DNA from: Mucilaginibacter yixingensis
GTDB lineage: Bacteria; Bacteroidota; Bacteroidia; Sphingobacteriales; Sphingobacteriaceae
Length of the DNA: 64,000 nucleotides
NCBI RefSeq assembly: GCF_041080815.1
Contig: NZ_CP160205.1
Span: 4,588,001 to 4,652,000 of the forward strand
Direction: 5' to 3'
Under the pieces are notes generated by a model that saw only the letters and a program-made list of their open reading frames with translations, had not been told where the DNA came from and ran no database searches. Below are positions 40,787-46,311 of the stretch, piece by piece (positions within the stretch are counted from its first letter, which is position 1; every line of letters starts with the position of its first letter). A program made the position numbers and the translations under genes.

Positions 40787-40824
40787 GATGATTCAAAAGT
40801 ACGATAAATCTCTCCAATCCTCCA

Positions 40825-40920
40825 CGTCATTGCGAGGAACGAAGCAATCTCTGCGGAGGATAGTCTGCAATGGATGCTGGCATTGCAAGTACAGAGATTG
40901 CTTCGTTCCTCGCAATGACG
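40825..40920. repeat. repeat family A palindrome, copy 3
   Basis: A 96-base element with arms CGTCATTGCGAGGAACGAAG/CTTCGTTCCTCGCAATGACG and inner CAATCTCTG/CAGAGATTG; the centre shares GGATAGTC and TTGCAAGTA with copy 4. Confidence 0.9.
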
Positions 40921-40965
40921 TGAAAATCAATATTTTCCACCCAATAAATAAAATTCATTTTATCC

Positions 40966-40996
40966 TTGCACGTTAAAGAAAAAACTACTTAATTTG
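40966..40996 (+). promoter_or_regulatory. probable promoter of the thr operon
   Basis: TTG at 40966-40968, 20 bases, then TTAATTTG at 40989-40996 (one mismatch to TAnnTTTG). Spacing matches the -33/-7 pattern, and the leader peptide ATG follows 14 bases later. Confidence 0.6.
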
Positions 40997-41010
40997 TCGT
41001 CATTAAAAAC

Positions 41011-41076
41011 ATGACTAAGAACATCACCATTATTGGCTCAATTATTACCACCGGGTATAATCACGGAGGAAGATAA
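41011..41076 (+). CDS. thr operon leader peptide (attenuation)
   Basis: A 21-codon frame, ATG to TAA, with four Thr and five Ile codons (nine of 21), ending IITTGYNHGGR; the TTG-N-G-G ending even resembles the E. coli thrL peptide. It lies between a promoter-like element and an intrinsic terminator in front of thrA. Low charged tRNA-Thr or tRNA-Ile would stall the ribosome at the Thr/Ile run (codons 11-14), exposing the segment 41064-41072 for antiterminator pairing. It is the sensor of the attenuator and is unlikely to have another function. Confidence 0.85.
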   Translation: MTKNITIIGSIITTGYNHGGR

Positions 41077-41144
41077 GCCACATGGTGTAACACAAGATAA
41101 AACCAAAAAGCGCCTTCCTCCGGTAAACGGGGAAGGCGCTTTTT
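41064..41144 (+). promoter_or_regulatory. thr attenuator: antiterminator segment and terminator hairpin
   Basis: The terminator stem is perfect over 14 base pairs (41105-41118 with 41131-41144) and ends in a T-run. CGGAGGAAG at 41064-41072, within the last leader codons, is an exact 9-base complement of CTTCCTCCG at 41114-41122, the 3' part of the terminator's left arm and loop. A ribosome reaching the leader stop codon (41074) would mask the first segment and permit termination; a ribosome stalled earlier would leave it free to pair and let transcription continue into thrA. Confidence 0.82.
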
Positions 41145-41169
41145 GTTTAAATCACGATTAAGCATCTCA

Positions 41170-43620
41170 ATGAAAGTTTTAAAATTTGGCGGCACATCTG
41201 TAGGCAGCGTAAAAAGCATCAGTACGGTAATAGACATCCTTAAACAGGAAGATATGAGCCAGGGCGCCCCAGTGGTGGTACTATCGGCCATGAGCGGCGT
41301 TACCAACCTGCTGGTACAAATGGCAGAGCAAGCTGCTGCCGGCCGGGAGTTTACCCAACACCTGGCAGAGCTGGAGACCAAACACTACGGTGTTGTTAAA
41401 GAACTGCTGGATGTGCAGAACCAAAACCCGGTACTCACCCGCCTTAAAATTTACTTTAACCAACTGGAAGACCTGCTGCAAGGCGTGCTTACCCTGCGCG
41501 AGTTAACACCAAAAACCCGCGATCTGATTTTAAGCTATGGCGAGCGTTGCTCATCAATGATGATTAGCCGCATTGCGATGCAGCACTTCCCGGCTTGTTT
41601 ATTTGTTGATGCTACCGAGGTAGTAAAAACAGATAGCAGCTACGGCCAGGCCAAAGTAAATATGGACCTGACCAGCCTGCTGGTAAACGATTTATACCGC
41701 AATAACAGCGATAAAATATTATTTGTAACCGGCTTCATTTCAAGTAACGAGGCTGGTAACATTACCACCCTGGGCCGTGGTGGCAGCGATTATACTGCAG
41801 CTATCTTCGGTGCGGTACTGAACGCCTCTGCCATCGAGATCTGGACCGATGTGAACGGTATGATGACTGCCGACCCACGCATGGTGAAAAAAGCATTCTC
41901 ATTACCGGAGCTGACTTATACCGAAGCCATGGAGCTTTCTTACTTCGGCGCCAAGGTAATCTATCCGCCAACCATGATCCCGGCGTTCCTGAAAAAGATC
42001 CCAATTGTTATCAAAAACACTTTTGATACTTCTTTTGAAGGCACCGTGATCCGTCATGACTGTGGTGCATCAAACCTGGCTATCAAAGGCATTTCATCGG
42101 TTAACAAAATCAGCATCCTTAACTTACAGGGTAGCGGTATGGTGGGTAAAGCTGGCTTTAGCGGCAGGCTGTTCTCTTTACTGGCCCGCGAGCAGATCAA
42201 CGTGATCCTGATCACCCAGTCATCATCAGAACACAGCATCACTTTTGCCGTACAACCTGATGACGCTGAGCGCGCCAAACAACTGATGGAGCAAGAGTTT
42301 GAGCTGGAACTGCTGGCTAAAAAACTGGAGTACCCGGTAATTGAAGAAGACCTGGCTGTGCTGGCCATTGTGGGCGAGAACATGAAACAAACCCCGGGCA
42401 TCTCGGGCAAATTGTTCCATGCGCTGGGCCGTAACGGTGTTAACGTACGTGCCATTGCACAAGGTTCATCAGAGTATAATATCTCGGTAATCATCAGCGG
42501 TGGCGATCTGGCCAAAGCGCTGAATGCGGTGCACGATTCATTCTTTGCGCAGCTCAACAAAACGTTGCATGCGTTCTGTCTGGGCACTGGCAACATTGGC
42601 AAAACCCTGTTCAAACAATTGAATGACCACGTTGAGTTCTTGGAAGCCAACAACGGCATCTCTGTAAAAATTGCAGGTATTGCCAACACCCGTAAAATGG
42701 CATTTGATGCCGACGGTTTTGACCTGAACAACTGGGAAGCTAAACTGGAGGCCAGCCACGAGGTGGCAGACCTGGGCGATTTCATCACCAAGATGAAAGC
42801 CATGAACCTGCCTAACTGTGTGTTTATTGATAACACGGCCAGCCCTAAACCAATTGAGTTTTACGAGCAGATTTTTAAATCAAACATATCGGTAGTAACC
42901 TGTAACAAGATCGGCAACTCCGGTCCGTACAGCCGCTACAAAATGTTCCGCGATACGGCTCGCCGTCACGGGGTCGACTTTTTCTATGAGACGAACGTGG
43001 GTGCAGGCCTGCCAATCATCCGCACGCTGAAAGACCTGATGTCAAGCGGCGACCGCCTGCAGAAGATCGAGGCGATACTTTCGGGTACCATCTCTTACAT
43101 CTTCAACAATTTTAATGGCGATGCTACTTTCCACGATGTGGTACAAACCGCACAAGAGTTGGGCTACACCGAGCCAGATCCACGTGATGACCTGCGCGGC
43201 ACCGACTTTATGCGCAAGATCCTGATCCTGGCCCGCGATGCCGGTTACCAGATGGAAGCCGAAGACGTGCAGATAGACAGCATCCTGCCAAAAGCATGTC
43301 TGGAAGCAGCCACAGTAGCCGATTTCTACGCAGCCTTGAAATCAGAGAACGCTTATTTCGAGGACCTGAAAAACACCGCAGCATCACAAGGTAAGGTGCT
43401 GCGCTACATCGGTATGCTTGATAACGGCAAAGCCAGCATCAGCCTGGAAATGGTTGATAAAGAGCATCCGTTCTATACCATGAGCGGCAGCGATAACATC
43501 ATCGCCTTTACAACAGACCGCTACAAGGTGCGCCCAATGGTGGTAAAAGGCCCTGGCGCAGGTGCAGAAGTAACCGCCGCGGGCGTGTTTGCAGATTTGA
43601 TTAACGTGGGCGCTAATTAA
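41170..43620 (+). CDS. thrA: bifunctional aspartate kinase / homoserine dehydrogenase
   Basis: An 816-residue fusion enzyme catalysing the first and third steps from aspartate to threonine. The aspartokinase domain (1 to about 290) begins MKVLKFGGTSVGS and holds TTLGRGGSDYTAA; two ACT regulatory segments follow (about 310-460; LITQSSSEHSITFAV, VRAIAQGSSEYNISV); the homoserine dehydrogenase domain (about 465-816) has the FCLGTGNIGKTL nucleotide site, VTCNKIG and YTEPDPRDDLRGTD. ATG at 41170 was chosen over an upstream TTG that lies in the terminator T-run. It is under attenuation control by the leader just upstream and followed by thrB and thrC. Confidence 0.96.
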   Translation: MKVLKFGGTSVGSVKSISTVIDILKQEDMSQGAPVVVLSAMSGVTNLLVQMAEQAAAGREFTQHLAELETKHYGVVKELLDVQNQNPVLTRLKIYFNQLEDLLQGVLTLRELTPKTRDLILSYGERCSSMMISRIAMQHFPACLFVDATEVVKTDSSYGQAKVNMDLTSLLVNDLYRNNSDKILFVTGFISSNEAGNITTLGRGGSDYTAAIFGAVLNASAIEIWTDVNGMMTADPRMVKKAFSLPELTYTEAMELSYFGAKVIYPPTMIPAFLKKIPIVIKNTFDTSFEGTVIRHDCGASNLAIKGISSVNKISILNLQGSGMVGKAGFSGRLFSLLAREQINVILITQSSSEHSITFAVQPDDAERAKQLMEQEFELELLAKKLEYPVIEEDLAVLAIVGENMKQTPGISGKLFHALGRNGVNVRAIAQGSSEYNISVIISGGDLAKALNAVHDSFFAQLNKTLHAFCLGTGNIGKTLFKQLNDHVEFLEANNGISVKIAGIANTRKMAFDADGFDLNNWEAKLEASHEVADLGDFITKMKAMNLPNCVFIDNTASPKPIEFYEQIFKSNISVVTCNKIGNSGPYSRYKMFRDTARRHGVDFFYETNVGAGLPIIRTLKDLMSSGDRLQKIEAILSGTISYIFNNFNGDATFHDVVQTAQELGYTEPDPRDDLRGTDFMRKILILARDAGYQMEAEDVQIDSILPKACLEAATVADFYAALKSENAYFEDLKNTAASQGKVLRYIGMLDNGKASISLEMVDKEHPFYTMSGSDNIIAFTTDRYKVRPMVVKGPGAGAEVTAAGVFADLINVGAN

Positions 43621-43760
43621 GAGCCCTCATCCCCCGAAAGGGGAGTGAATAAATAACCCAGGTTGTCATCTTGAACGACAGTGAGAGATCTTTTTGGAGC
43701 GACAGGCTCGCCAGGCGTAAAAGCATGATCGAAAAGATTTCTCCCGATGGTCGAAATGAT
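43620..43760. repeat. repeat families C and B in the thrA-thrB gap
   Basis: 43620-43648 holds the short family C hairpin CCCCCGAAAGGGG. 43664-43760 is a family B-like palindrome, arms GTCATCTTGAACGACAGTG with AGATCTTTT, and AAAAGATTT with GGTCGAAATGAT. The frame upstream of thrB runs into this element, so the ATG at 43747 is not its natural start. Confidence 0.6.
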
Positions 43761-43803
43761 ATGTAAGAAGAAGGACAAACCGGGAGAAGGAGAATACAAT
43801 AAA

Positions 43804-44784
43804 ATGGAAGAATTAATGGTGGCAGAAAAAACACCGACCTTTGAGGTAAAACAAAAAAGCGTTACCGTGTTTGCACCGGCTACGGTGGCTAACGTGGTGT
43901 GCGGTTTTGACGTGCTGGGCTTTGCGGTAAACGCACCGGGCGATGAAGTGGTAATGCGTGTAACTGACAAACCGGGTATTACCATTAGCAAAATTACCGG
44001 CGATAACGGTCGCCTGCCAATGGATCCGGCTAAGAACACCGTGAGCGTAAGCGTTAAGCATTACCTGGAAAGCATCGGTCGCTCTGATCTGGGTTTGGAT
44101 ATAGAGCTGCATAAAAAAATGCCTATCGGTAGTGGTTTGGGCTCAAGCTCGGCCAGTACAGTGGCTGGTTTGTTTGCCGCCAAAACTATTTTAGGCGATG
44201 ACCGCGACCCAATTGCGTTGCTACCTTTCGCCATGAAAGGTGAGGAAATGGCATGCGGACAAGGTCATGCTGATAACGTTGCCCCTGCCCTGTTTGGTGG
44301 CTTTGTGCTGATCCGCAGCTATGAGCCGCTGGATGTAGTGCGCCTGCCACACCCGAAAGATTTGTGGTGCGCCATTGTATTCCCTGATGTTGATGTACCA
44401 ACCCGCGAAGCCCGCCAAATTATCCGCAAAAAAGTGGATATGAAAGATGCTGTTACCCAATGGGGCAACGTAGCCGGCCTGGTAAGCGGTTTGTTTATGC
44501 AGGATATAGACCTGATTGGCCGCAGCATGAAAGACGTGCTGGTAGAACCGGTACGCTCTATGCTGATCCCTGGTTTTTACCAAATGCGCGAAATGTCTAT
44601 GGAACTTGGCGCCGTTAGCTTTGGTATTTCAGGCTCTGGTCCATCGGTATTTGCATTTACCAGAGACGAAGCTACCGCACAAAAAATTACCGAGAAGCTG
44701 CAAAGCTTTTTAGAAGGCATGAAGATCGATTCTTTCAGCTATGTATCAACTATCAATGATGCAGGGCCAAAGGTGATTGGATAA
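43804..44784 (+). CDS. thrB: homoserine kinase
   Basis: A 326-residue GHMP kinase that phosphorylates homoserine. Motifs: SVTVFAPATVANVVCGFDVLGFAV (N-terminal, given over about residues 18-40), the ATP loop PIGSGLGSSSAS (about 102-113) and the C-terminal FGISGSGPSVFAF. The start at 43804 was chosen because the longer frame reaches into a dispersed repeat, and because GGAGAAGGAGA, a fair ribosome-binding site, lies just upstream. Second gene of thrABC. Confidence 0.95.
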   Translation: MEELMVAEKTPTFEVKQKSVTVFAPATVANVVCGFDVLGFAVNAPGDEVVMRVTDKPGITISKITGDNGRLPMDPAKNTVSVSVKHYLESIGRSDLGLDIELHKKMPIGSGLGSSSASTVAGLFAAKTILGDDRDPIALLPFAMKGEEMACGQGHADNVAPALFGGFVLIRSYEPLDVVRLPHPKDLWCAIVFPDVDVPTREARQIIRKKVDMKDAVTQWGNVAGLVSGLFMQDIDLIGRSMKDVLVEPVRSMLIPGFYQMREMSMELGAVSFGISGSGPSVFAFTRDEATAQKITEKLQSFLEGMKIDSFSYVSTINDAGPKVIG

Positions 44785-45003: not shown

Positions 45004-46311
45004 ATGAACCTCTACAGTACCAACAACCCCGATCTCCGTGTAGATTTTAAAGAGGCGGTGTTCAACAGCATGCCGCAGGATAAAGGCCTTTATATGCCCG
45101 TTAGCATCCCGCGCCTGCCAAAGGAGTTTATTGATAACCTGGGCATCCTGTCGTTACAGGAAATTGCCTATACCGTAGCCCAGCATCTGCTGCAAGGCGC
45201 CATCCCGGATGGTGATCTGAAAGCCCTGATTGAAGATGCTATTAACTTTGAGGCACCGGTAGTAGAACTGGAAGATAACGTGCGCGTGCTGGAACTTTTC
45301 CACGGCCCCTCTTTGGCGTTTAAAGATTTTGGCGCCAGATTTATGAGCCGTGTAATGGCCTACTTCCTTGAAGCTGGCGAGAAACAGCTGGACGTACTGG
45401 TAGCCACTTCTGGCGATACCGGCGGCGCTGTAGCCCTGGGTTTCCTGGGTGTACCAAATACCCGCGTTACCATTCTTTACCCTAAAGGCAAGGTGAGCGG
45501 CGTGCAGGAGCAGCAATTAACCACCAACGGCCAGAACATCCGTGCGCTGGAAGTTGACGGTACTTTTGACGATTGCCAGGCACTGGTAAAACAAGCATTT
45601 ACCGATGCTGATCTGAATGCAGCATTGCGTCTGACTTCGGCCAACTCTATCAATATTGCCCGTTTGATCCCGCAAACTTTCTACTACTTTAATGCCTACG
45701 CACAAATGCGGCGCGAGGGTAAAAGCAAAGTAGCTTTTGCAGTGCCAAGCGGCAATTTTGGAAACATTGGCGCCGGCATCCTGGCCTGGAAAATGGGCTT
45801 GCCGGTTGAGCAATTCATTGCGGCTACCAACGTAAACGATACTGTTCCGGCTTACCTGACCAGCGGTGTTTACGAGCCGAAACCATCAGTACAAACCCTG
45901 TCAAACGCTATGGACGTGGGTAACCCAAGCAACTGGGTACGTATTGCCGATATGTTTAAAAACGACTTGCCAGCGTTGAAAAACATGATTACCGGCTACA
46001 GCTTTAATGATGACGATACGCTGAAAGCCATTGAGGCCGTGTATCAAAAATATAACTACGTGGTTTGCCCGCATACGGCCATTGCCTGGCTGGCGGTTAC
46101 CGATTGGCTGAGCAAACACCCGGGCGATGTTACCGGCGTGTTCCTGTCAACCGCGCACCCGTGCAAATTCCCAGACGTATTTACCGGCGCTATTGCCGAT
46201 GCGGTACAGATACCTGAACAAGTGAAAGAGTTAGAGCAGCGTGAGAAACAGGCTACCGCCCTGCAACCAAACTTTGCCGATTTTAAAAGCTACTTACTGA
46301 ACAACTTATAA
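45004..46311 (+). CDS. thrC: threonine synthase
   Basis: A 435-residue PLP enzyme converting O-phosphohomoserine to threonine. The Schiff-base lysine lies in LAFKDFGARF (about residue 106), with the phosphate-binding ATSGDTGGAVALGF and the later SANSINIARLIPQ and CPHTAIAW segments. Final gene of thrABC; a weak hairpin terminator follows the stop. Confidence 0.96.
   Translation: MNLYSTNNPDLRVDFKEAVFNSMPQDKGLYMPVSIPRLPKEFIDNLGILSLQEIAYTVAQHLLQGAIPDGDLKALIEDAINFEAPVVELEDNVRVLELFHGPSLAFKDFGARFMSRVMAYFLEAGEKQLDVLVATSGDTGGAVALGFLGVPNTRVTILYPKGKVSGVQEQQLTTNGQNIRALEVDGTFDDCQALVKQAFTDADLNAALRLTSANSINIARLIPQTFYYFNAYAQMRREGKSKVAFAVPSGNFGNIGAGILAWKMGLPVEQFIAATNVNDTVPAYLTSGVYEPKPSVQTLSNAMDVGNPSNWVRIADMFKNDLPALKNMITGYSFNDDDTLKAIEAVYQKYNYVVCPHTAIAWLAVTDWLSKHPGDVTGVFLSTAHPCKFPDVFTGAIADAVQIPEQVKELEQREKQATALQPNFADFKSYLLNNL

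Follow-up and report, generated by a model that had tools for sequence, protein, structure and literature searches.

A 64,000-nucleotide stretch of the Mucilaginibacter yixingensis genome (contig NZ_CP160205.1, positions 4,588,001 to 4,652,000; hereafter the window, whose own numbering is used below) carries the threonine operon thrABC. Judged from sequence comparison and folding models, the leader in front of thrA is very probably a classical ribosome-mediated transcription attenuator of this operon. Its parts and their geometry were read directly: a leader open reading frame (ORF) rich in codons for the product of the operon, an intrinsic terminator, and an antiterminator strand that is complementary to one terminator arm and positioned for control by the ribosome. 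Four threonine and five isoleucine codons occur in the leader ORF. The terminator stem consists of AAAAAGCGCCTTCC (41105-41118) and GGAAGGCGCTTTTT (41131-41144), which form 14 perfect pairs, and CGGAGGAAG (41064-41072), at the end of the ORF, is the exact reverse complement of CTTCCTCCG (41114-41122). An earlier reading of the window, made from the letters alone (the sequence-only reading), had reported the 21-codon threonine/isoleucine ORF, the 9-base complement and the 14-bp terminator, and all of them were recovered where it had placed them (Table 1). Structure prediction confirmed the terminator and antiterminator folds and revealed in addition a helix, overlooked in that reading, between the early leader codons and an element after the stop codon (helix 1). 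The terminator, the antiterminator and helix 1 are mutually exclusive.

Conservation and covariation across Sphingobacteriaceae

Folding of the 150-nt leader RNA was 7.2 standard deviations better than that of 200 shuffles (z -7.2). When the intergenic stretch was shuffled 2000 times, an ORF with at least nine threonine and isoleucine codons arose in 15 cases, so that a single genome would not exclude a constitutive intrinsic terminator preceded by a chance threonine-rich frame, with no part played by the ribosome. The frame on its own is not overwhelming; the 9-base complement to the terminator arm is rarer by chance (4 of 5000 leader shuffles). The family comparison already contradicts the chance-frame explanation, which we consider very unlikely: ORF, antiterminator and terminator co-occur in 161 of 171 thrA upstreams and in none of 429 shuffles, and the strands covary.

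For this comparison 151 genomes of the family Sphingobacteriaceae (Bacteroidota; comparison group f1, with genera labelled g1, g2 and so on) were searched, of which 133 yielded thrA, and 80 loci were taken from GTDB contigs. The 171 upstreams, the window's own included, comprised 30 obtained with the genome search, the 80 from GTDB contigs, 60 retrieved separately and locus L175; L033-L112 were assigned to genus g1 by labels and similarity, without a tree. A script search found the Thr/Ile ORF, antiterminator and terminator in this order in the 161 upstreams, which represent 149 distinct leaders and 18 genera; six of the 161 (L123, L128, L132, L144, L150, L154) were modelled by a second script only. 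The ten upstreams without a model were L073, L139, L141, L142, L147 and L167-L171, the first four of which show a similar architecture by eye. Subsets of the 149 leaders were used for the promoter count (147) and for a fixed-threshold detector (143), and alignment A1 comprises 35 of 42 chosen sequences. The detector (7 bp, 7 Thr+Ile codons) passed 137 of the 143 leaders already found and 0 of 429 shuffled upstreams. Relatives that keep the hairpin and lose the peptide frame, named in the sequence-only reading as evidence against itself, were not the pattern found: frame and hairpin occur together in the 161 upstreams.

Over the 149 distinct leaders the Thr+Ile fraction is 0.50 in frame, and the two alternative frames give 0.11 and 0.04. 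Exactly 21 codons were found in 86 of the peptides; threonine codons are present in all of them (2 to 11 each) and isoleucine is absent from six. Depending on the genus, the antiterminator strand GGAGGAAG is translated in all three frames, being read as GGR in most g1, as EEG in g2, g3 and g25, and as RRK in g4 and most g16; the RNA is therefore conserved apart from the peptide. Many ORFs in g7, g12, g20 and g21 extend to ATG GTG TAA or a variant.

Codon choice was also recorded. The share of ACC among the last two threonine codons compared with earlier ones was 92% versus 34% in g1 and 71% versus 14% in genera of the GTTGTAA type, with a small contrast in genera whose ORF ends in MV (43% versus 35%) and in g18 (29% versus 17%). 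Earlier threonine codons lean towards ACA and the last two towards ACC in g1 and several other genera, even where the post-stop element is unable to pair with ACC. ACC is the commonest threonine codon in g1 thrA genes (2041 of 3560).

Covariation was assessed by a permutation test in which one representative per genus was drawn and partners were permuted, with 40 draws. The strands of helix 1 change together between genera, from CACCAT/ATGGTG in the window to TATACCA/TGGTGTA (g21), TTACAAC/GTTGTAA (g14) and ATTACAACAT/ATGTTGTAAT (g4), with a median p of 0.0030 (worst draw 0.023). The post-stop element has an alternative partner, ACCA, inside the antiterminator, and this inner antiterminator stem also covaries (median p 0.0025, worst draw 0.0395); two control pairs of stretches gave p 0.43 and 0.30 in the same test. 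The antiterminator strand and the terminator arm likewise vary in step, as GGAGGAAG/CTTCCTCC, CGGGGC/GTCCCG (g14), TGGGGG/CCCCCA, TATCGGGA/TCCCGATA and GGAAGGT/GCCTTCC. Covariation of the 9-base complement, whose absence the earlier reading had proposed as counter-evidence, is significant but modest: unselected segments gave a median p of 0.0085 (worst of 40 draws 0.09; control 0.15). This test supersedes a first antiterminator result (median p 0.0005), which was biased since the strands had been picked by complementarity. Own pairing exceeded swapped pairing for helix 1 in 15 of the 18 genera and for the antiterminator in 13, and counting by fixed columns gave a strong terminator signal, with both-sided changes at 9 of the 14 pairs in the 35 aligned leaders.

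These pairings bear on the post-stop element itself. ATG GTG TAA, lying after the stop codon and 11 nt behind GGAGG, could be taken for a two-codon ORF that is translated and contributes to switching, as ATGGTGTAA is present in 77 of the 86 distinct g1 leaders and the leader ORF of several other genera ends in this sequence or a variant. The bases are explained by pairing, however: leaders with TTACAAC in the early codons have GTTGTAA as the element, so the element tracks helix 1. Bacteroidota are not known to depend on Shine-Dalgarno sites, which also counts against a translated mini-ORF, and we set it aside as extremely improbable.

A further explanation accepts that translation of the peptide senses threonine and places the output mainly in thrA initiation or RNA decay, with the hairpin as a stability element. 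The distance between hairpin and thrA varies from 18 to 208 nt among the leaders listed, and only one of 19 threonine-rich thrA leaders from other families has a strict terminator, so that such a sensor can couple to another output. Within Sphingobacteriaceae, by contrast, the strict terminator criterion holds for 149 of 149 distinct leaders, the stem covaries, and its left arm is at the same time the partner of the antiterminator, which makes this explanation very unlikely. In L004 and L038 about 180 extra bases lie between terminator and thrA (leader about 208 nt before thrA); the spacing from leader to gene is therefore free.

Ribosome position and the proposed switch

Ribosome position was modelled with the first free base set 16 nt beyond the start of the P site. 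In the window leader, 41064-41072 is wholly free with codon 14 (the last threonine codon) or an earlier codon in the A site and partly covered with codons 15 and 16 there (0.77, 0.34); from codon 17 onwards no antiterminator was obtained. Folding reproduced the earlier claim that a ribosome finishing the peptide covers the complement and that one stalled at codons 11-14 does not. Across the family, the antiterminator was absent in 149 of 149 leaders with the stop codon in the A site and free in 126 with the last threonine codon there. Permissive positions comprised 890 of the 945 threonine codons, and in 76 of the 86 g1 leaders the last permissive codon is the one beyond the last threonine codon. 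The same calculation on thrL of E. coli K-12 put the boundary at its last threonine codon, 16 (0.54, then 0.01), which agrees with the thrL-like logic ascribed to the window leader in the sequence-only reading.

According to the proposed attenuation mechanism, plentiful charged Thr-tRNA (perhaps also Ile-tRNA) would allow the leading ribosome to reach the stop codon at 41074 with its footprint over 41064-41072; with this strand covered, the terminator (41105-41144) would fold and most transcripts would end before thrA. A ribosome waiting on threonine codons, above all codons 13 and 14, would hold its leading edge just short of the antiterminator strand. The free strand would then allow GGAGGAAG...TGGT to pair with ACCA...CTTCCTCC, the terminator would be blocked and thrABC would be transcribed. 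If the leader is not translated, helix 1 would join the early codons to the post-stop element, and the terminator would form. Termination, read-through, the identity of the signal amino acid and the kinetic competition enter this mechanism as predictions.

Several observations weigh against this reading. Five family loci from three divergent genera (L167-L171) are without the architecture. Own pairing was lower than swapped pairing for helix 1 in g13, g18 and g22, and for the antiterminator in g4, g16, g18, g19 and g22. Fixed-column antiterminator covariation in A1 barely exceeds shuffles, in part because the frame of GGAGG differs between genera. In 23 of 149 leaders the modelled antiterminator value at the last threonine codon is below 0.5. 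Full-length equilibrium folding ends in the terminator for every ribosome position, and the switch must therefore be kinetic and dependent on timing. Before the terminator is complete, the ribosome-free leader prefers the antiterminator (window 1.00, g1 mean 0.94); the protector (1:2) helix, helix 1, exists and covaries and in g1 is beaten by the antiterminator at equilibrium, so that in window and g1 leaders it may not force termination without translation. In g10, g14, g15, g17 and g19, with modelled antiterminator means of 0.00 to 0.15, helix 1 could do so.

Organization of the leader and operon

Features of the locus are collected in Table 1. Curated models identify an aspartate kinase/homoserine dehydrogenase, a homoserine kinase and a threonine synthase, the set of genes that accompanies a thrL-type leader. 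The terminator ends 25 bases before the thrA ATG. The gene upstream of the leader is divergent (LpxH-like, with scores below curated cut-offs), and because of this orientation the terminator meets transcripts bound for thrA. The -33/-7-like pair noted in the sequence-only reading is present: TTG and TTAATTTG together match 8 of the 9 specified positions of TTG/TANNTTTG. A score of 8 or 9 of 9 was found in 51 of 147 leaders (window included) compared with 47 of 735 block-shuffled upstreams, and the promoter is the weakest of the parts.

Table 1. Positions of leader and operon features in the window.
Feature	Position	Strand	Remarks
TTG, -33-like element	40966..40968	+	consensus match; 20 nt 5' of the -7-like box; weak alone
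TTAATTTG, -7-like element	40989..40996	+	14 nt between its end and the leader ATG
Leader peptide ORF MTKNITIIGSIITTGYNHGGR*, 21 codons	41011..41076	+	ATG 41011; TAA 41074-41076; stop included
Helix 1 left strand CACCAT, codons 5-7	41025..41030	+	partner 41082-41087; helix covaries across genera
Helix 1 extension, left strand TGGCT	41034..41038	+	partner 41076-41080 (in window species)
Last two Thr codons ACC ACC (codons 13-14)	41047..41052	+	control codons closest to antiterminator
Antiterminator strand CGGAGGAAG, ORF end	41064..41072	+	exact complement of 41114-41122; across genera either conserved or matched by compensating changes
Helix 1 extension, right strand AGCCA	41076..41080	+	partner 41034-41038
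Post-stop element ATGGTG	41082..41087	+	helix 1 right strand; alternatively 41083-41086 is the inner antiterminator strand
Inner antiterminator partner ACCA	41102..41105	+	partner TGGT 41083-41086 when the antiterminator folds; inner stem covaries
Intrinsic terminator	41105..41144	+	14-bp stem; T run at 41140-41144; 41114-41122 pairs with antiterminator strand
thrA, bifunctional aspartate kinase/homoserine dehydrogenase I	41170..43620	+	NF006959 1033.8 bits, cut-off 726
thrB, homoserine kinase	43747..44784 (ORF; true start probably inside)	+	NF002288 373.3 bits, cut-off 194
thrC, threonine synthase	45004..46311	+	TIGR00260 294.3 bits, cut-off 167.1

Further upstream, at 40823-40922, lies an inverted repeat with perfect 31-nt arms. 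Its 20-base core has 96 forward and 92 reverse copies in the genome (at most one mismatch), often in pairs about 62 nt apart, and a half-site also occurs at about 44890, between thrB and thrC. It is a dispersed palindromic repeat.

Relation to known attenuators and to other leaders in Bacteroidota

Comparison of 40950-41200 with 4227 Rfam families gave RF00506 (Thr_leader) as the top score (30.8 bits, E 3.5e-4), with a hit at 40997-41146 over the full model length. The gathering score of RF00506 (55 bits) was not reached and gathering mode gave no match; the window leader is therefore not filed in RF00506, though it would work like a member. Both the window leader and E. coli thrL have a 21-codon threonine/isoleucine peptide, a terminator before thrA and a switch boundary at the last threonine codon, and in both the antiterminator strands end at the stop codon or one base before it. 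The arms differ (CTTCCTCC/GGAGGAAG in the window, GCCCGCACC/GGTGCGGGC in E. coli), and the protector helix of the window joins early codons with a post-stop element that doubles as the inner antiterminator strand. The models match across the two systems, RF00506 on the window at the score given above and the family model R1 on E. coli at 33.1 bits; shared threonine codons and a terminator alone could give cross-matches of this size (about 31 and 33 bits), which need not mean a common origin.

Passages of an earlier account describe trp-type attenuators as regions I to IV with II:III or III:IV pairing (PMC1183508), and the window leader shares with that scheme its mutually exclusive, strand-sharing helices. 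Unlike the trp type, region II is split in the window into a strand within the ORF (41064-41072) and a post-stop strand (41082-41087), of which only the latter pairs with region I. The same passages count eight codons of the ACC type in the leader of E. coli, with selective charging given as the reason for codon choice (PMC1183508). What is new here is a further case of a known attenuator class, with a split region 2.

Among the papers listed by literature searches, judged from titles and abstract openings, none described a thr attenuator for Sphingobacteriaceae. A comparative survey of attenuation from 2010 reportedly covers more phyla. That survey is cited in PMC4833913. Also in 2010, the authors of a Firmicutes case stated that, to their knowledge, none had been shown before it outside Proteobacteria and Actinobacteria, as worded in the passage concerned (PMC2965389). 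The impression in the sequence-only reading that such leaders are little described in the phylum is consistent with the searchable literature, where two hints were found. Passages on Flavobacterium psychrophilum report clues for leader-peptide attenuation before amino-acid operons (PMC9723704). They concern the same phylum and draw on mapped transcripts and predicted structure; a thr operon is not mentioned in these passages, nor is leader anatomy, and the comparison is limited to that. In Bacteroides thetaiotaomicron, short ORFs resembling leader peptides are mentioned in 5' untranslated regions, in the part of the text concerned (PMC7366714).

In the M. yixingensis genome R1 gave one strong match (106 bits), followed by the reverse strand of the terminator itself (30.6) and a match at 1844753 (28.1) that proved on reading to be an ordinary terminator. 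Among 149 genomes of the class, 45 had a match at E 0.01. Ten loci, L266 among them, were read, nine from class genomes and one from the own genome. Five (L250, L265, L267, L268, L280) look like ordinary terminators, and L262 and L263 have histidine codons on the opposite strand. In L260 a histidine-rich leader, MFTQFHHIHHHTTTDSSGG, and a terminator precede a hisG-like gene. L261 has a tyrosine-rich leader, MISTVNNYYYYHTPQAER, with four tyrosine codons and a terminator downstream. The gene that follows L261 presumably encodes an aromatic amino acid hydroxylase, which it resembles.

Two other leaders were seen in the M. yixingensis genome. L243, on the reverse strand about 100 nt before hisG, has a histidine-rich leader (MNGFQLHHLHLHHHVVVIS) and a palindrome (ATCACCACGTTGTGGTGAT) just before TAG, with no terminator seen on reading before hisG. 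L245, before trpE (bases about 619-770), has a leader with two adjacent tryptophan codons (MIRMGNIFSWWHQNNLAAGYTSI) followed by a strong terminator, and is a probable classical trp attenuator.

Analysis of 63 thrA upstreams from other families revealed a threonine-rich ORF passing the filter in 20, one of which (L191) is spurious by eye. A strict intrinsic terminator follows the ORF in L202 alone among the 19 other-family leaders. The loose criterion was satisfied by 11 of the 19, in several of them by the stop-codon hairpin itself with a T-poor run, and such leaders may have a weak terminator. In most of the 19 a small hairpin encloses the stop codon or borders on it. A stop in or beside such a hairpin (for example CCCC TTA GGGG), in the last ~200 bases before thrA and with no strict terminator, was seen in L188, L190, L196, L198, L200, L201, L204, L206-L209, L211, L214, L222, L224, L225, L238 and L239. 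From their sequences, these 18 would be sensors without visible output, and folding of the other-family threonine leaders gave no clear output structure. In L202 (last ~130 bases before thrA), CGGGCTGC after the stop could pair with downstream GCAGCCCG, and this leader may be a classical attenuator. L177, from another family, is a weaker candidate of the classical type.

It is conceivable, though on balance doubtful, that a threonine-sensing leader peptide is widespread in Bacteroidota with its output swapped between families: a terminator switch in Sphingobacteriaceae and, in several other families, a stop-codon hairpin, as a rule without a strict terminator. The histidine-rich leader L243 of the M. 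yixingensis genome, with its palindrome before the stop and no terminator seen, is counted with this reading. If so, a further kind of leader-peptide switch, so far undescribed, would exist in the phylum, and it might act through Rho, pausing or initiation. Shine-Dalgarno initiation is not known to play a large part in Bacteroidota. With the Sphingobacteriaceae leaders this phylum would gain a well-supported case of transcription attenuation by the ribosome, and with it of transcription-translation coupling over at least the leader. The natural variants across the family open each helix to tests of compensatory change, and they offer a contrast with the mostly terminator-less threonine leaders found elsewhere in the phylum.

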